DNA of 39,241 nt from Pseudobutyrivibrio sp. (lineage in GTDB: Bacteria; Bacillota; Clostridia; Lachnospirales; Lachnospiraceae). Location of the stretch: contig NZ_JAFUSK010000036.1 of the NCBI RefSeq assembly GCF_017471675.1, forward strand, positions 1-39,241, written 5' to 3'. Below are positions 8,935 through 39,241 of this stretch, in pieces. The notes beneath the pieces were generated by a model. The model made no database searches, was not told where the DNA came from, and saw nothing but the letters and a program-made list of their open reading frames with translations. The translations under genes and the position numbers were made by a program. Each line of letters starts with the position of its first letter. Positions within the stretch are counted from its first letter, which is position 1.

Positions 8935-9207
8935 ATGAACAAGACAGAATTAGTAGCAGCTATCGCTAGCAAGGCTAACATTTCTAAGAAGGACGCAGAA
9001 GCTTCTGTTAAGGCATTTACAGAGGTTGTTGCTGAAGAGCTTAAGAAGGGGGAGAAGATTCAGCTTGTAGGTTTTGGTACTTTTGAAGTATCTGCAAGAG
9101 CAGCTCGTACAGGTAGAAACCCACAGACAGGCGCAGAGATGAAGATTCCTGCATCTAAGGCTCCTAAGTTTAAGGCTGGTAAGGCTCTTAAGGATGCTAT
9201 CAACTAA
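8935..9207 (+). CDS. hup: HU family DNA-binding protein (90 aa)
   Basis: This is a small, basic, dimeric nucleoid protein that bends DNA. The 90-residue length and the pattern match [22 protein letters not shown] at the N-terminus, [20 protein letters not shown] in the middle and a C-terminal helix [13 protein letters not shown]. The Arg- and Pro-containing arm ([14 protein letters not shown]) that inserts into the minor groove is complete. The GAGGAGG ribosome binding site ends eight bases before ATG. It is a single-gene unit with its own promoter (8840-8868) and a strong terminator (9233-9260). HU lies just upstream of the rqcP-divIC cluster in many clostridia, which supports the gene order here. 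Confidence 0.96.
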
Positions 9208-9630: not shown

Positions 9631-9931
9631 AAAGGGAAGAAGAGTTAGAAGAAAGAAAACCTCTACAGGTAGAATATACGTAGCTGTAATCATGCTTTTT
9701 ATGATAGGGGCTATGACTGTCCAGATGGTTAATCTGTATCGCAAGAATCAGGACTACAAGAAGACAGAAGAGGCTCTTGAAAAGCAGCTTGAATCAGCTA
9801 AGCAAAAGCAAGATAAATTAAAGGAAGATGAAGAATACGTCGGTAGCGACGAATACATAGAAAAAGAAGCATCTGAGAAGCTTGGATTAACACATGACAA
9901 TTGGACCATTTTTAAAGTAAAAGAAAATTAA
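9623..9931 (+). CDS. divIC: Septum formation initiator, DivIC/FtsL-like (102 aa)
   Basis: This is a bitopic division protein that joins the FtsL-DivIB complex at the septum. A basic cytoplasmic N-terminus (MSKKGRRVRRKKTSTGR) precedes one membrane helix (about residues 18-39). A short extracellular coiled coil (about 40-75) and a C-terminal motif (EKEASEKLGLTHDNWTIFKV) follow, as expected for PF04977-type proteins. I chose ATG 9623 over an in-frame start at 9599 because a basic start right before the helix is typical and GGAG lies at 9609-9612. It overlaps rqcP by eight bases, and the tilS frame begins at its stop codon. Confidence 0.85.
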   Translation: MSKKGRRVRRKKTSTGRIYVAVIMLFMIGAMTVQMVNLYRKNQDYKKTEEALEKQLESAKQKQDKLKEDEEYVGSDEYIEKEASEKLGLTHDNWTIFKVKEN

Positions 9932-28475: not shown

Positions 28476-28594
28476 GTAGTTTGCACTATTATGGTGCAGT
28501 GTGTACTTCTATGCTTATTTTTATGTATGGATTTCCACACATTACTTAGGTAAGATTTTTCCAAATTTAAAATAAAATGAGAGGTGGAACGTCA

Positions 28595-31500
28595 ATGGAG
28601 AAAAACAGAATACGTCCAGTGAAAGCTGGAAAGAACTTGCGTATGAGTTACTCGAGACAAAAAGAGGTACTTGAGATGCCTAATTTAATCGAGGTCCAGA
28701 AGAACAGCTATGACTGGTTCGTTAAGGACGGATTAAAGGAAGCATTTGCAGATATCTCTCCTATTCAAGATAGGGGTAACCAGCTTGAGTTACATTTTGT
28801 TGACTTTACACTGTGCAAGGATGAGGTGAAATATACAATCCCACAGTGCAAGGAAAGAGATGCAACATATGCTGCACCTTTAAAGGTTAAAGTGCGCCTT
28901 GTTAACAAGGAATCCGGCGATATGCAGGAGCACGAAATCTTTATGGGTGATTTACCACTTATGACTGAGACAGGTACATTCGTAATCAACGGAGCGGAGC
29001 GTGTTATCGTCAGCCAGTTGGTACGTTCACCAGGTATCTACTATGCAATCGGTCACGATAAGATTGGTAAGGAGTTATATTCTTGTACTGTTATTCCAAA
29101 CCGTGGTGCTTGGTTAGAGTATGAGACAGATTCCAATGACGTTTTTTATGTACGTGTAGATCGTAACAGAAAGGTACCTGTTACAGTTCTTATTCGTGCA
29201 CTTGGTTTAGGTACAAACCAGGAGATTATAGATGTTTTCGGTGAGGAGCCAAAGATTCTTGCTACATTTGCTAAGGATCCTTCTATCACAGAAAAGAATC
29301 CACAGGGTAGCTATGAAGGCGGCCTTTTAGAGTTATATCGTAAGCTTCGTCCAGGCGAGCCACTTGCTAAGGATAGTGCTGAGTCTCTTATCCATGGCAT
29401 GTTCTTTGATCCACGTCGTTACGATCTTGCAAAGGTTGGACGTTACAAGTTCAATAAGAAGCTTATGCTTCGCAACCGTATTGCAGGACAGATTTTAGCT
29501 GAGGATGTTGTTGATACAACTACAGGTGAAATCATTGCTAAGGCTGGAGATAAGGTAACTGTTGAGAAGGCAGATGAAATCCAGAATGCTGCAGTTACAC
29601 ACGTATTTATCCAGACAGAGACACGTAATGTCAAGGTGCTTTCTAACATGATGGTTGACATCACTAAGTTCGTTGACTGTGATGCAGCTTCACTTGGTAT
29701 TACTGAGCTTGTTTATTATCCAGTTCTCGAGAGAATTCTTTCTGAGAACTCTACAAAAGAAGATATCGAAGATGCAATCGAGAGAAATGTTGCAGACCTT
29801 ATTCCTAAGCACATTACTGTTGAGGATATTTTTGCTTCAATCAACTACAATATGCATCTTGAGTATGGTATTGGTAAGGATGATGATATCGATCACCTTG
29901 GTAACCGTCGTATCCGTGCTGTAGGTGAGTTGTTACAGAACCAGTACAGAATTGGTTTATCACGTCTTGAGAAGGTTGTACGTGAGCGTATGACTACTCG
30001 TGATGTTGAGGATATTTCACCACAGAACCTTATCAATATTAAGCCTGTAACAGCTGCTATCAAGGAATTCTTTGGTAGTTCACAGTTGTCACAGTTCATG
30101 GATCAGAACAACCCACTTGGTGAGTTGACACATAAGAGACGTTTATCAGCCCTTGGTCCTGGTGGTCTTTCAAGAGACCGTGCCGGATTCGAGGTTCGAG
30201 ACGTTCACTACTCTCACTATGGACGTATGTGCCCAATCGAGACACCTGAAGGACCTAACATCGGTCTTATCAACTCTCTTGCTAGCTATGCTCGTATTAA
30301 TGAGTATGGTTTCATCGAGGCACCATACAGACGTATTGATAAGTCTGACCCAGAGAACCCTCGTGTAACAGACGAAGTTGTATATATGACTGCAGACGAA
30401 GAGGATAATTACCATGTAGCACAGGCTAACGTCAAGCTTGACGAGGAAGGCCATTTCATGAGAAAGAACGTATCTGGTCGTTTCCGTGAGGAGACTCAGG
30501 AATACGATAAGAAGATGTTCGATTACATGGACGTATCTCCTAAGATGGTATTCTCAGTAGCTACAGCCCTTATTCCATTCCTTCAGAACGATGATGCTAA
30601 CCGTGCCCTCATGGGTTCTAACATGCAGCGTCAGGCAGTGCCTCTTCTTACTACAGAAGCACCTGTTGTTGGTACAGGTATGGAACCAAAGACAGCTGTC
30701 GATTCAGGTGTCTGCGTTGTTGCTAAGCGCGCAGGTATCGTTGAGATGTCTGAAACAAAGAGAATTATCGTTAAGGCTGACGAAGACGGAACAAGAGATG
30801 AGTATGATCTTCTTAAGTTCACACGTTCTAACCAGTCTAACTGCTATAACCAGCGCCCTATCGTATTTAAGGGTGACCATGTAGAGGCTGGCGAGGTTAT
30901 CGCTGATGGTCCTTCTACAAAGAATGGTGAGCTTGCCCTTGGTAAGAACCCACTTATCGGATTCATGACATGGGAAGGTTACAACTACGAGGATGCCGTT
31001 CTTCTTTCAGAGCGCCTCGTTCAGGATGATGTTTACACATCTATCCATATTGAAGAGTACGAAATCGATGCTCGTGATACAAAGCTTGGACCAGAGGAAA
31101 TCACACGTGATGTAGCTGGTGTAGGTGATGATGCTCTTAAGGATCTTGATGAGAGCGGTATCATCCGTATCGGTGCAGAGGTTCGTGCCGGTGATATCCT
31201 TGTTGGTAAGGTTACACCAAAGGGTGAGACAGAGCGTACACCAGAAGAAAGACTTCTTCTTGCAATCTTCGGCGAGAAGGCTAGAGAGGTACGTGATACA
31301 TCACTTCGTGTTCCGCACGGTGCTTACGGTATCGTTGTTGATGCAAAGGTATTTACTCGTGAGAACGGTGATGAGCTTGCTCCAGGAGTTAACAAATCAG
31401 TACGTATCTACATCGCTCAGAAGAGAAAAATCGGTGTAGGTGATAAGATGGCCGGTCGTCACGGTAACAAGGGTGTAGTTTCCCGCGTGCTTCCAGTAGA

Positions 31501-32503
31501 GGATATGCCATATCTTCCAAACGGTCGTCCACTTGATATCGTACTTAACCCATTGGGCGTTCCTTCACGTATGAACATTGGTCAGGTCCTTGAGATTCAC
31601 CTTTCTCTTGCAGCTAAGGCTCTTGGATTTGATATTGAGACACCAGTATTTGATGGTGCAAAGGAAATTGATATTCAGGATACTCTTGAACTTGCAAATG
31701 ACTATGTAAATATGCCATTTGATAAGGAAGAGGCTAAGGACGGCGAGGAGACATTCTTCGATAAGTATGTTGATGTCCTTCGTGAGGATGTTATGGATTA
31801 TCTTTCAACAAACCGTGCACACCGTGCGCTTTGGAAGGGTGTTCCAATCTCTCGTGATGGTAAGGTACAGCTTCGCGATGGTCGTACAGGTGAGCCATTC
31901 GATGGTCCAGTTACTATCGGACACATGCACTACCTCAAGCTACACCACCTTGTAGATGATAAGATCCACGCTCGTTCAACTGGTCCTTACTCTCTTGTTA
32001 CACAGCAGCCACTCGGTGGTAAAGCACAGTTCGGTGGTCAGCGTTTCGGAGAGATGGAAGTTTGGGCCCTCGAGGCTTATGGTGCATCATACACACTTCA
32101 GGAAATCCTTACAATGAAGTCTGATGATGTTATCGGTCGTGTTAAGACATACGAAGCTATTATCAAGGGTGAGAACATCCCTGAGCCAGGTATCCCTGAG
32201 TCATTCAAGGTATTACTTAAGGAATTACAGTCACTTGGTCTTGATGTACGTGTGCTCGATGAAAACCGTGAAGAGGTTGAGCTCATGGAGACTAGTGAAT
32301 ATGGAAATACAGACCTCAATGCAATCATCGCAGGCAGCGACAGAAACTTCGCTTTCGAGGATGACAATTCATTCGCACAGGCAGGATTCTCTAAGAAGAA
32401 ATTCGATTCAGAGGGTGATCTTGTAGATGACGAAGATGATATGCCATACGAAGAAGATGACGAAGATTTCGATGACGTAGCAGATGAATTTGATGAGGAA
32501 TAA
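28595..32503 (+). CDS. rpoB: DNA-directed RNA polymerase beta subunit (1302 aa)
   Basis: This is the catalytic-core subunit of RNA polymerase. Starting at ATG 28595 it reads [20 protein letters not shown], a normal Lachnospiraceae N-terminus; GAGGTGG at 28581-28587 supports this start over the ATG at 28577. The rifampicin-binding cluster ([37 protein letters not shown]) has the usual sensitive-type residues. [20 protein letters not shown] and the C-terminal [20 protein letters not shown] are intact. A highly acidic Asp/Glu tail ends the protein. It is cotranscribed with rpoC, 19 bases downstream. Confidence 0.98.
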
Positions 32504-32522: not shown

Positions 32523-35500
32523 ATGCCAGAGAATAAAGAAGCGACATATCAACCAATAGCATTTGACGCAATACAGATTGGATTGGCTTCACCTGAGAAG
32601 ATCAGACAGTGGTCTCGTGGCGAGGTTAAGAAGCCTGAGACAATCAACTATCGTACACTGAAGCCTGAGAAGGATGGTCTTTTCTGCGAAAAGATTTTTG
32701 GACCAAGCAAGGACTGGGAATGTCACTGCGGAAAGTACAAAAAGATTCGTTATAAGGGTGTAGTTTGTGACCGTTGTGGTGTTGAAATCACAAAGGCTAG
32801 CGTTCGTCGTGAGCGTATGGGTCACATCGAGCTTGCTGCACCAGTTTCACATATTTGGTATTTCAAGGGAATCCCTTCACGTATGGGACTTATTCTTGAT
32901 CTTTCACCAAAGACATTAGAGAAGGTTCTCTACTTTGCATCATACATCGTACTTGATGCAGGTGAGACTGCTCTTATGTACAAGCAGGTTCTTACAGAGG
33001 CTGAATACCAGGAAGCTAGAGAGCAGTATGGTAACGGCTTCAGGGTAGGAATGGGTGCTGAAGCTATTCAGGAGCTGTTAAAGGCAATTGACCTTGATGA
33101 GGAAGCTACTAGACTTCAGATTGAATTAGATAACGCTACAGGCCAGAAGCGTTCACGTATCATCAAGAGACTCGAGGTTGTTGAGGCATTCCGTGAGTCA
33201 GGAAACAGACCTGAGTGGATGATTATGACAGTTATCCCTGTTATTCCACCAGATCTTCGTCCTATGGTACAGCTTGATGGTGGCCGTTTTGCTACATCTG
33301 ACCTTAACGACTTATATCGTCGTATCATTAACAGAAACAACCGTCTTCGTAGACTGTTAGAGCTTGTAGCTCCTGATATCATCGTTCGTAACGAGAAGCG
33401 TATGCTTCAGGAAGCTGTTGATGCTCTTATTGATAACGGTCGTAGAGGACGTCCAGTTACAGGTCCTGGTAACAGACCACTTAAGTCACTTTCAGACATG
33501 CTCAAGGGTAAGTCTGGTCGATTCAGACAGAACCTTCTTGGCAAGCGTGTTGACTACTCAGGTCGTTCAGTTATCGTCGTTGGACCAGAGCTTAAGATTT
33601 ACCAGTGTGGTCTTCCAAAAGAGATGGCACTTGAGCTATTCAAGCCTTTCGTTATGAAGGAGCTTGTTGGTAATGGAATGGCTCACAACATTAAATATGC
33701 TAAGAAGATGGTAGAGAAGTTTGAGCCAGAGGTTTGGGACATCCTTGAAGATGTCATTAAAGAGCATCCAGTTATGCTTAACCGTGCTCCTACACTTCAT
33801 AGATTAGGTATCCAGGCTTTCGAGCCAATCCTTGTAGAAGGTAGAGCTATCAAGCTTCATCCACTTGTATGTACAGCTTTCAACGCCGATTTCGACGGTG
33901 ACCAGATGGCTGTTCACCTTCCACTTACTCAGGAGGCACAGGCAGAGTGTAGATTTATGCTTCTCTCTCCTAACAACTTACTTAAGCCTTCAGATGGTGG
34001 TCCTGTTGCCGTTCCTTCACAGGATATGGTACTTGGTATCTATTATCTTACACAGGAGCGTGGTACTACAGTAGGCGATTCAAGAGAAGAGCTTGGTGAG
34101 GGTAAGATTTTCAAGAACCTTAACGAAGCAATCTTAGCTTATGAGAACAAGGCTCTTACAATGCACGCTCGTATTACAGTTCGTGTTTCTAAGAAGCAGG
34201 CTGATGGTACTGTAGTAACAGGTAATGTTTCATCAACACTTGGAAGACTCTTATTTAACGAGATTATTCCTCAGGATCTTGGTTATGTAGATAGAACAAA
34301 GCCTGAGAATGAGCTTGTACCAGAGGTTGACTTCCACGTTGGTAAGAAGCAGTTAAAGCAGATTCTTGAAAAAGTTATTAATACACACGGAGCTACAAAG
34401 ACAGCAGAAGTTCTTGATGATATCAAGGCAATGGGTTACCACTACTCAACAATCGCTGCCATGACAGTTTCTATTTCAGATATGACAGTTCCTGCTCAGA
34501 AGCCAGAGCTTATTGCACAGGCTGAGGAGACAGTTGATAAGATTACACGTCAGTACAAGCGTGGTCTTATTACAGAGGAAGAACGTTATCGTGAAGTTGT
34601 AGATACATGGAAAGAGACTGATGATGAGCTTACAAGAGACCTTCTTGATGGTCTTGATAAGTACAACAACATCTTCATGATGGCTGATTCAGGTGCCCGT
34701 GGTTCTGATAAGCAGATTAAGCAGCTTGCTGGTATGCGTGGTTTGATGGCTGATACAACAGGTAAGACTATCGAGCTTCCTATTAAGTCTAACTTCCGTG
34801 AGGGTCTTGATGTACTTGAGTACTTCATGTCAGCTCATGGTGCTCGTAAGGGTCTTTCTGATACAGCTCTTCGTACAGCCGATTCAGGATACTTGACACG
34901 TCGAATGGTTGACGTTGCTCAGGAGCTTATTATCCGTGAGTCTGACTGTGTTGCTGGTACAGACAGAGAAATCCCAGGTATGTGGGTATACGCATTCATG
35001 GATGGTCGTGAAGAGATCGAATCTCTTAAGGATCGTATTACTGGTAGATTCTCTTGCTACTCTATCTACGATGCTAACGGCGAAATGATTGTTAAGGCTA
35101 ATCACATGATTACACCTAAGCGTGCAGCTGCAATCATTGAGCGTGGTGTTGATGATAAGGGCGAGCCAATTAAAAAGGTTAAGATTAGAAACGTACTTAA
35201 CTGCCGTTCACACGTTGGTGTATGTGCTAAGTGTTATGGTGCTAACATGGCTTCAGGTCGTGCCGTACAGGTTGGTGAAGCAATCGGTATCATCGCTGCA
35301 CAGTCTATCGGTGAGCCAGGTACACAGCTTACTATGAGAACATTCCATACTGGTGGTGTTGCTGGTAACGATATTACACAGGGTCTTCCTCGTGTCGAGG
35401 AGCTTTTCGAGGCTAGAAAGCCTAAGGGACTTGCTATCATCACAGAGATTGCTGGTACAGTTTCTATTGAAGAGGATTCTAAGACAAAGAAGAGAGAGGT

Positions 35501-36191
35501 TGTTGTTACAAACTCTGAGACAGGTGATGTAGAGAAGTACTTAATTCCTTATGGTTCACGTATCAAGGTTCTTGCTGGACAGGAACTTGAAGCTGGTGAT
35601 GAGCTTACAGAAGGTTCTGTAAACCCACATGATATCCTTACTATTAAGGGTAAGTCAGCTGTTCAGGATTACTTAATCCGTGAAGTTCAGCGTGTTTACC
35701 GTTTACAGGGTGTTGATATCAACGATAAGCATATCGAAGTACTTTGCCGTCAGATGTTAAAGCGTATCAGAGTTGACGAGGCTGGTGATACAGGCTTCAT
35801 GCCAGGTTCACTTGTTGATTGGCTTGACTTTGAGGATGCTAACGAGAAGATGGAAGCAGAAGGTAAGGAACCAGCTACAGGTACTCAGGAGCTTCTTGGT
35901 ATTACAAAGGCAGCCCTTGCTACTAACTCATTCCTTTCAGCAGCTTCATTCCAGGAGACAACTAAGGTTCTTACTGATGCAGCTATCAAGGGTAAGATTG
36001 ATCCACTTAACGGACTTAAAGAGAACGTTATCATCGGTCGCTTAATCCCTGCTGGTACAGGTATGAAGAGATACTCTAACATTCCACTTTCAACTGATAA
36101 TCAGTTGGCAGAGGCTCAGGCAGCTCTTGACGCTCTTGAGAACGAAGATGCAGAGGCTGAAACAGCTGAAGATCTTGTTGATGTAGAATAA
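32523..36191 (+). CDS. rpoC: DNA-directed RNA polymerase beta' subunit (1222 aa)
   Basis: This is the largest core subunit, holding the active-site magnesium. An N-terminal zinc ribbon is visible ([20 protein letters not shown], four Cys). The catalytic [15 protein letters not shown] motif is intact, as are the bridge-helix and trigger-loop regions and a second zinc site ([13 protein letters not shown]). Length is normal for Firmicutes and no insertion is apparent. GGGAG precedes ATG. A strong terminator follows at 36207-36240. Confidence 0.98.
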
Positions 36192-36353: not shown

Positions 36354-36773
36354 ATGCCAACATTCAACCAGCTAGTTAGAAAAGGTCGTCAGACATCTGT
36401 TAAGAAGTCTACAGCACCAGCACTTCAGAGAGGTTATAACTCTCTTAAGAAGAAGCCTACTAACACTTCTTCTCCACAGAAGCGTGGTGTATGTACAGCT
36501 GTTAAGACAGCTACACCTAAGAAGCCTAACTCAGCTCTTCGTAAGATTGCCAGAGTTCGTCTTTCAAACGGAATCGAAGTAACATCATACATTCCAGGCG
36601 AAGGTCACAATCTTCAGGAGCATAGCGTTGTTTTGATTCGTGGTGGTCGTGTTAAGGATTTACCAGGTACACGTTATCACGTAATCAGGGGTACACTTGA
36701 TACAGCCGGCGTTGCTAACCGTAAGCAGGGTCGTTCAAAGTACGGCGCTAAGAGACCTAAGGACGCTAAGTAA
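36354..36773 (+). CDS. rpsL: 30S ribosomal protein S12 (139 aa)
   Basis: It is part of the decoding centre. [20 protein letters not shown] is the N-terminus; [20 protein letters not shown] and [20 protein letters not shown] contain the usual streptomycin-sensitive-type lysines. Length is normal. AGGAGG lies upstream. A pair of GCATGC palindromes (36289-36294 and 36320-36325) in the leader could form a stem. Confidence 0.98.
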
Positions 36774-36926: not shown

Positions 36927-37397
36927 GTGCCAAGAAAAGGACATACTCAAAAGAGAGACGTTTTGGCAGATCCTATATACAATAGCAAAGTAGTTACAAA
37001 GCTTATCAACAACATCATGCTTGATGGTAAGAAGGGCGTAGCTCAGAAGATTGTATATGGTGCATTTGACAAAGTCGCAGAAAAGACTGGAAAGCCTGCA
37101 CTTGAGGTTTTCGAAGAAGCTATGAACAACGTTATGCCTGTACTTGAGGTAAAGGCTAGACGTATCGGTGGTGCTACATATCAGGTACCTATCGAAGTTA
37201 GACCAGATCGTCGTCAGGCCCTTGGCCTTAGATGGCTCACAATGTTCTCTCGTACACGTACAGAGAAGACAATGGAAGAGCGTCTTGCTAACGAGATTAT
37301 GGATGCAGCTGGTAACACAGGTTCAGCTGTTAAGAGAAAAGAAGAAATGCATAGAATGGCAGAAGCTAATAAGGCATTTGCTCATTACAGATTCTAA
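36927..37397 (+). CDS. rpsG: 30S ribosomal protein S7 (156 aa)
   Basis: It nucleates assembly of the 30S head. [35 protein letters not shown] and [20 protein letters not shown] are family motifs; 156 residues is the exact usual length. GTG is the start, with GGAGG at 36914-36918. The 153-base gap after rpsL is long for this operon and AT-rich; I see no clear promoter or terminator in it. An S7-binding autoregulatory structure could lie there. Confidence 0.98.
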
Positions 37398-37412: not shown

Positions 37413-39092
37413 GTGGCAGGAAGAGAATATCCACTTGAGCGTACCAGAAATATTGGTATTATGGCTCATATCGATGCCGGAAAGACTACACTTACAGAGC
37501 GTATTCTTTATTATACTGGTGTTAACTACAAAATCGGTGATACTCATGAAGGAACTGCAACCATGGACTGGATGGAGCAGGAAGCAGAGCGTGGTATCAC
37601 AATCACTTCAGCTGCTACAACATGTCACTGGACTGAGCAGGAAAACTGCAAGCCTAAGAAGGGTGCTTTAGAGCACCGTATCAACATCATTGATACACCA
37701 GGCCACGTAGATTTCACTGTTGAGGTTGAGCGTTCCCTTCGTGTACTTGATGGCGCCGTTGGTGTCTTCTGTGCAAAGGGTGGCGTTGAGCCACAGTCAG
37801 AGAATGTTTGGAGACAGGCTGACACATATAACGTACCAAGAATGGCTTTCATCAATAAGATGGATATCCTTGGTGCAAACTTCTACGGAGCTGTTGATCA
37901 GATCCGTGATAGACTTAAGAAGAACGCTATCGTTCTTCAGCTTCCAATCGGTAAGGAAGATGATTTCAAGGGAATCATCGATCTTTTCGAGATGAAGGCA
38001 TACATCTATAACGATGATAAGGGTGATGATATTTCTATCACAGATATCCCTGAGGATATGAAGGAAGATGCTGAGCTTTATCACACAGAGCTTGTTGAGA
38101 AGATTTGTGAGTTAGATGATGATCTTATGATGGCTTATCTTGAGGGTGAGGAGCCTTCAATCGATGAGTTAAAGGCAGTACTTCGTAAGGCTACTTGCGA
38201 GTGCAAGGCTATCCCAGTATGCTGTGGATCTGCATATAGAAACAAGGGTGTTCAGAAGCTTCTTGATGCTATCCTTGAGTTCATGCCAGCTCCTACAGAC
38301 GTACCAGCTATCCAGGGTACAGACTTAGATGGTAACCCAGTTGAGAAGCACTCTTCAGATGAAGAGCCATTCGCAGCTTTAGCATTTAAGATTATGGCTG
38401 ACCCATTTGTTGGAAAGCTTGCTTTCATCCGTGTATATTCAGGTACATTGAACTCAGGTTCATACTGCCTCAATGCTACAAAGGATAAGAAGGAACGTGT
38501 AGGTCGTATCCTTCAGATGCACGCTAACAAGCGTACAGAGTTAGACAAGGTTTACTCTGGTGATATCGCAGCTGTTGTAGGTCTTAAGTTTACAACAACT
38601 GGTGATACAATCTGCGATGAGCAGCACCCAGTTATCCTTGAGTCTATGGAATTCCCAGAGCCAGTTATCGAGCTTGCTATCGAGCCTAAGACTAAGGCTG
38701 GTCAGCAGAAGATGGGCGAGGCTCTTGCTAAGCTTGCTGAAGAGGATCCTACATTCCGTCAGCACACTGATCAGGAAACAGGTCAGACAATTATCGCAGG
38801 TATGGGTGAGCTTCACCTTGAGATTATTGTTGATCGTCTTCTTAGAGAGTTCAAGGTTGAGGCAAACGTTGGTGCACCTCAGGTTGCTTACAAGGAGACA
38901 TTTACAAAGCCTGTTGATCAGGAATACAAATATGCTAAGCAGTCAGGTGGTCGTGGTCAGTACGGTCACTGTAAGGTTAGATTTACTCCAATAGATGCTA
39001 ACGCTGAAGAGACATTCAGATTTAAGTCTTCAGTAGTTGGTGGTGCTATTCCTAAGGAATACATCCCATCTGTTGGTGAGGGTATCGAGTAA
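37413..39092 (+). CDS. fusA: Elongation factor G, ended early by an in-frame TAA (559 aa)
   Basis: This GTPase drives ribosomal translocation. G-domain motifs are complete: AHIDAGKTT (G1), DTPGHVDFT (G3) and INKMD (G4). Domain II, domain III ([20 protein letters not shown]) and the first part of domain IV ([14 protein letters not shown]) follow. GTG 37413 has AGGAGGGG just upstream. The frame stops at 39090-39092 after VGEGIE, in domain IV, about 140 residues short of the usual 690-700. The next codon onward continues as normal EF-G. Other proteins have Glu after GI(Q/E), so a single G-to-T change of GAA to TAA would explain it. Everything else about the gene looks functional, so sequencing error or a recent nonsense mutation is more likely than a true short protein. 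Confidence 0.9.
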
Positions 39093-39241
39093 GCAGCTAA
39101 GGCTGGTATCCTTTGCGGATTCCCTGTTCTTGGTGTAGAAGCAGACGTTTACGATGGTTCTTACCATGAAGTCGATTCATCAGAAATGGCATTCCACATT
39201 GCTGGTTCAATGTGCTTCAAGGAAGCTATGGCTAAGGCAGC
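39093..39241 (+). pseudogene. fusA: Continuation of the fusA frame after the in-frame stop (3' end off window)
   Basis: In the same frame the sequence reads [20 protein letters not shown], then [20 protein letters not shown] and [10 protein letters not shown] to the window edge. This is textbook EF-G domain IV and early domain V, with no further stop or frameshift and no ribosome binding site of its own. It is meaningful only as the remainder of fusA. Confidence 0.85.

Follow-up and report, generated by a model that had tools for sequence, protein, structure and literature searches.

How an in-frame stop codon came to lie within fusA, the gene for elongation factor EF-G, is the question raised by this locus of a Pseudobutyrivibrio-type gut bacterium. 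The window, meaning the whole stretch of DNA analyzed, is a complete contig of 39241 bp (G000:C6) that terminates in the gene order rpoB-rpoC-rpsL-rpsG-fusA, as read from its open reading frames (ORFs). The TAA that interrupts fusA is most likely no property of a living EF-G gene and instead a wrong or minority base in the consensus beside the contig end. Among the papers listed in literature searches, none deals with this case.

The interrupted fusA frame

From its GTG start, fusA runs for 559 sense codons before it meets the TAA, which is codon 560, in frame, and within domain IV (Table 1). Beyond the TAA, the same frame continues with 49 EF-G codons up to 39239, and a match to the EFG_IV domain spans the stop uninterrupted (38877-39239, 147.4 bits, one TAA inside). 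An earlier note, made from the sequence alone, had described a TAA after residue 559 followed by 49 further EF-G codons, and that description is present in the letters given. When the 559-amino-acid piece was compared with Pfam, the G domain, domains II and III, and a partial EFG_IV were found, the last corresponding to positions 1 to 70 of the 121-position profile. The same piece is a canonical EF-G, with 891.8 bits against TIGR00484 (cut-off, 659.4); its translation carries the RGITI motif, and its place behind rpsL-rpsG supports its being the fusA of the str operon. The TAA denies fusA an uninterrupted frame through domains IV and V, and domain V is absent from the contig. EF-G is 705 amino acids long in all 15 relatives measured, and a product ending at the TAA would lose the remainder of domain IV and the whole of domain V.

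Table 1. Coordinates of the features discussed, in window positions
Feature	Position	Strand	Evidence or remark
rpoB	28577..32503	+	frame intact
rpoC	32523..36191	+	frame intact
rpsL	36354..36773	+	G016 and G024 contigs end at equivalents of 36538 and 36648
rpsG	36927..37397	+	G002 and G007 contigs end at equivalents of 36981 and 37103
fusA (canonical EF-G) through its in-frame stop, 559 aa	37413..39092	+	TIGR00484, Pfam
In-frame TAA, codon 560, domain IV	39090..39092	+	Glu in 16/16 genus genomes spanning the codon
Contig-terminal 151 bases	39091..39241	.	letter-identical in 6/15 other genus species
fusA in-frame continuation, 49 codons and two bases, reaching the contig end	39093..39241	+	

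The stop aside, fusA itself is an ordinary gene. Compared with genome G006, it has 21 synonymous and 6 nonsynonymous codon changes, the pattern of a gene in use, and the EF-G of P. ruminis CF1b is 97% identical to that of the window. Homologues in at least one of three relatives were found for 26 of the 27 window ORFs, one of them at only about 25% identity. Among the 27, fusA alone holds a stop well inside a gene, and other stops, as judged from their coordinates, lie in other frames or at gene ends.

What codon 560 normally encodes is clear within the genus. Every same-genus genome whose fusA spans the codon has Glu there, written GAA in 15 and GAG in G024, and among the relatives compared the stop is private to this assembly, as the comparison with close relatives proposed in the earlier note could reveal. 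The note had also taken Glu to be the normal residue of EF-G at this position, which holds in the genus and is not universal: among 108 EF-G loci of other genomes, the residue is Glu in 72, Gly in 19, Asp in 11, Ser in 4, Gln in 1, and Ala in 1. These loci are 111 rows minus two rows of the genome itself and its own C9 paralogue, and they count twice what is apparently one genome (G005 and P. ruminis CF1b). A stop occurs at codon 560 in none of the 108. When domain IV was surveyed across 295 genomes of this order, no row among those listed, which do not include that of the window itself, had a stop inside. The fusA of a Bacillota MAG, RGIG8018, has an in-frame TAG at a different codon (L067:6283-6285, on a contig of 7780 bp).

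A private base beside a contig end

Only 151 bases separate the odd base from the end of the contig, a boundary that was not visible to the earlier note. The assembly comprises 3.10 Mb in 92 contigs, with a completeness of 98.23% and a contamination of 0.34%; the genome is fragmented and probably a MAG, a status that we infer. Despite that completeness, the assembly contains no match to an EF-Tu domain, and hence no tuf, and no match to 16S rRNA. The SSU rRNA gene is described as frequently absent from MAGs (PMC7593591). Moreover, the 3' end of fusA was not found in the assembly by a search for the EFG_C domain; matches above the cut-off lie on contigs C9, C56, C76, and C67, within open frames of 602 to 733 amino acids, and none is the missing end. 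In G012, for example, tuf lies directly behind fusA.

The tail of the contig is common to several species. Within the last 152 bases, the six species that share the terminal 151 differ from the window at position 39090 only, and in three of them this holds across at least the last 233. Over the last 241 bases, identity to three genomes is 98.3 to 99.2%, which places this segment among those most alike between species; in two of those three genomes, the values for kilobase segments farther upstream lie between 69 and 97%. Assemblies of relatives also break nearby: contigs are broken within rpsL-rpsG in 4 of the 19 other genus genomes with a match (Table 1). Among 28 other genomes of the genus, a match to rpoC-rpsG is absent in 9 and a match to the EF-Tu domain in 10.

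Sequence and assembly errors are known at the contig ends of MAGs, in stretches common to co-occurring relatives. Here too, the contig breaks off inside a gene that hardly varies from species to species, essential neighbors are unassembled, and a single base is private; the case differs in that its cause is read indirectly, from the consensus. In a mixed sample, stretches common to co-occurring species would make the assembly graph ambiguous, the contig would halt there, and a tip built from few or mixed reads could let an erroneous or minority base survive. Among the genomes compared, the stop belongs to this assembly only; it stands 151 bases before the contig ends, in a tail common to several species, and the neighboring essential sequences (tuf and the 3' end of fusA) were not found elsewhere in the assembly. 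These features argue for an artefact, most simply one base, wrong or from a minority, at a tip whose coverage would be thin or ambiguous. Sequencing or assembly error was the first choice of the earlier note and is the explanation best supported. The case is mainly a caution against reading a biological meaning into an essential gene that looks broken near the tip of a contig when the genome is fragmented; such assemblies break at genes like fusA and tuf, which hardly differ from one species to the next.

Two further private stops in the genome speak against an artefact of this kind, however, as both lie far from contig ends, beyond the reach of the contig-end mechanism. Counts of private changes likewise give no impression of a consensus that is poor throughout. 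C>A changes (with G>T) are 8.3% of 2925 private changes here, compared with 6.0% of 1355 in G025 and 10.8% of 3159 in G006. Among private amino acid changes at invariant codons, C>A accounts for 37 of 202 here versus 16 of 107 in G025, 76 of 474 in G006, and 176 of 1199 in G003, an excess that is slight at most. Finally, rpoC-rpsL-rpsG-fusA has 4 private amino acid changes in 2098 codons, the stop counted, versus 0 to 6 in 15 others. A signal of assembly-wide damage or of a mutator was looked for, and none was found beyond this at most slight C>A excess.

Other private stops and the search for a second copy

The first of the two further stops is an in-frame TAG at C67:38255-38257 (L003:820-822, minus strand) in a Tet-like gene, on a contig of 45519 bp. 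Matches to this gene occur in 28 relatives, and in all 24 genus relatives taken for alignment the copy is intact and the position is a Glu codon. The second is an in-frame TAA at C1:22216 (L302:2216-2218, plus strand) in a gene for an OppA-like solute-binding protein (PF00496), on a contig of 107592 bp. The position is Glu in the three relatives that align there (G006, G003, and G010); the stretch in G012 is not alignable. All three private stops, that of fusA included, are consistent with a codon for Glu in which G became T.

The stop survey compared 780 kb of the genome with the ORFs of relatives, covered 290 kb, and considered by eye only well-aligned conserved frames. In nineteen rows of the genome itself, over 8 residues separated a stop from either end of the relative's ORF, and 7 of these rows represent the three cases above. 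The other 12 were set aside by eye as near starts, upstream of the gene start, at a natural end, poorly aligned, or antisense; the stop at window position 9062, for instance, is antisense to an intact HU-like gene. We note that one stop set aside, at C67:28693, is well aligned and close to the C terminus and that another, at C15:43, lies in a short ORF at a contig start. A third stop set aside, a TAA in the frame of tilS (window 9918-9920), lies just before the first listed ATG, inside the end of the preceding gene. The ORFs of relatives read through that position, where G019 has AAA (Lys), not Glu; provided that tilS is coding in this stretch, the TAA would replace a residue other than Glu.

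The reverse comparison, of the genome's own ORFs with four relatives, returned 13 rows (4 in G025, 5 in G003, 0 in G006, and 4 in G019), all near starts or poorly aligned and none convincing by eye. A cruder count of codon columns pointed to 13 putative stop columns in G003 and 5 in G006. In-frame ORF neighbors that passed a coding score number 31 here versus 9 in G025, 7 in G003, and 2 in G006. By eye, three of the 31 were kept as having no clear start behind the stop (the Tet-like gene, the OppA-like gene, and a pair on C24), and the rest were judged ordinary. The pair on C24 (C24:107578; L244:7578, plus strand) is a possible split ORF of 73 and 63 amino acids around a TAG, with no Pfam match and no relative among the genomes compared.

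Private stops in two other genes are what decaying or mixed populations may contain, and the stop in fusA might likewise be a true nonsense mutation, present either in a fraction of the population or in a strain whose second, intact fusA lies in an unassembled part of the genome. EF-G from the window copy would then be missing domain V entirely and domain IV in part, and the hole in the assembly, which falls exactly at the end of fusA, could hide an intact copy. We consider such an allele unlikely, although less so than the explanations taken up below. Behind the stop, the sequence agrees letter for letter with that of six relatives for 151 bases, and thus the nonsense change, if real, would be very young. 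Moreover, the 16 genus relatives that have fusA show one long fusA match per genome, and a search of the rest of this genome, which the earlier note had proposed, revealed no second canonical fusA in the assembly. A recent duplicate was also sought by DNA comparison and not found: elsewhere in the genome, fusA matches only short stretches, the longest being about 150 bases at 70%.

Besides fusA, two genes encode an EF-G domain IV, one on C9 and one on C67. The C9 gene has an intact open frame for a protein of 698 amino acids that shares 33.7% identity with fusA where the two align. The protein scores 601.3 against the EF-G equivalog, below its cut-off of 659.4, scores 843.8 against NF009381 (cut-off, 583), and is without the RGITI consensus in G2. 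Absence of that consensus is given as a character of the EFG II subfamily (PMC3150367). By these sequence characters, the C9 protein would fit EFG II and not a spare fusA: it resembles EFG II in having EF-G-like domains without RGITI, and its gene differs from the window gene in being neither the str-operon fusA nor a close duplicate of it. The C67 gene is the Tet-like gene with the private TAG; its product is a Tet-like GTPase that scores 380.8 bits against NCBIfam tet_protect, below the cut-off of 775. The end of the protein presumably resembles the start of a YacP/NYN domain, as judged by eye, and a Pfam search gave no match to that domain there. Clostridiales Tet proteins with a YacP/NYN-type domain are mentioned in the literature (PMC4342817). 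Rescue by a paralogue, the second choice of the earlier note, thus finds no support in the assembled part of the genome, where the EFG II-like gene and the Tet-like gene are the only ones of the kind.

Suppression, takeover by a paralogue, and the genetic code

A tRNA with the anticodon TTA reads both TAA and TAG. Were the anticodon of tRNA-Glu(TTC) changed to TTA, a recent or weak suppressor could read both codons as Glu, a prospect that we regard as distinctly improbable. On this improbable account, a UUA-anticodon tRNA-Glu would insert Glu at TAA and TAG, so that essential fusA and other genes could hold stops at Glu positions. TAA and TAG would still end most genes, and the genome would stand at an early, ambiguous step toward a changed code in a wild bacterium, which we likewise rate as a slim chance. 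All three private in-frame stops in conserved frames do fall at Glu of the aligned relatives. With every stop-making base change taken as equally likely, a stop falls on Glu with a chance of 0.182, and all three do so with a chance of about 0.006; with changes limited to G>T or C>A, the two values are 0.558 and about 0.17. Three of three at Glu is odd under the first assumption and unremarkable under the second.

The 30 tRNA loci listed by ARAGORN, with 150 of 174 candidates scored, include none with the anticodon TTA, CTA, or TCA, though tRNA-Glu(TTC), the gene from which a suppressor would derive, is itself without a match in the assembly. A tRNA-Glu(TTC) gene occurs in tRNA clusters of G003, G010, G012, and G019; in this genome, G025, and G006, the search gave two tRNA-Glu(CTC) genes each and none with TTC. 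If Glu-to-stop changes were neutral along this branch, about 108 would be expected at 1874 comparable Glu codons, by a rough estimate from the rate at fourfold sites (51 in 888) that ignores codon preference, versus two seen by the same criterion; any suppressor would thus be recent or weak. The possible tilS stop, at a Lys codon of one relative, also counts against a suppressor if that stretch is coding. The case resembles ochre nonsense suppressor tRNAs, in a comparison of how they work only, in that TAA and TAG both stand at Glu positions; it differs in that no such tRNA was found in the scan, tRNA-Glu(TTC) has no match in the assembly, and the sites are very few. For stop readthrough, the third explanation in the earlier note, a dedicated signal after the TAA is improbable, as the next 151 bases are the same in six relatives with GAA and thus no such signal appears to have evolved. 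Should the TAA prove genuine and be decoded as Glu, nature would here offer an essential elongation-factor gene that tolerates a stop via suppression, and with it a testable model of how a code change begins.

Still less probable, to the point of being hardly credible, is that EF-G of the str operon has become dispensable and that the C9 paralogue has taken over its role. The intact 698-codon frame on C9 would permit a takeover, but its product falls below the equivalog cut-off (601.3 against 659.4) and is without RGITI. Several genus relatives with an intact fusA have a second, weaker match of the same kind, and the ratio of 21 synonymous to 6 nonsynonymous changes in fusA does not suggest a gene out of use.

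That TAA (and TAG) might be sense codons for Glu genome-wide can be dismissed for practical purposes, the three Glu-position stops being its only ground, since TAA and TAG still serve as the terminators of most genes, about as often as they do in relatives, which excludes a settled code change. The earlier note had argued from the use of TAA as a normal stop, and the argument holds in the window and among orthologous pairs. The 26 ORF ends in the window are 15 TAA, 8 TAG, and 3 TGA, and the counts of TAA/TAG/TGA are 104/40/12 here versus 108/34/14 in G025 (156 pairs), 102/35/9 versus 100/37/9 in G003 (146 pairs), and 29/8/6 versus 26/10/7 in G006 (43 pairs).
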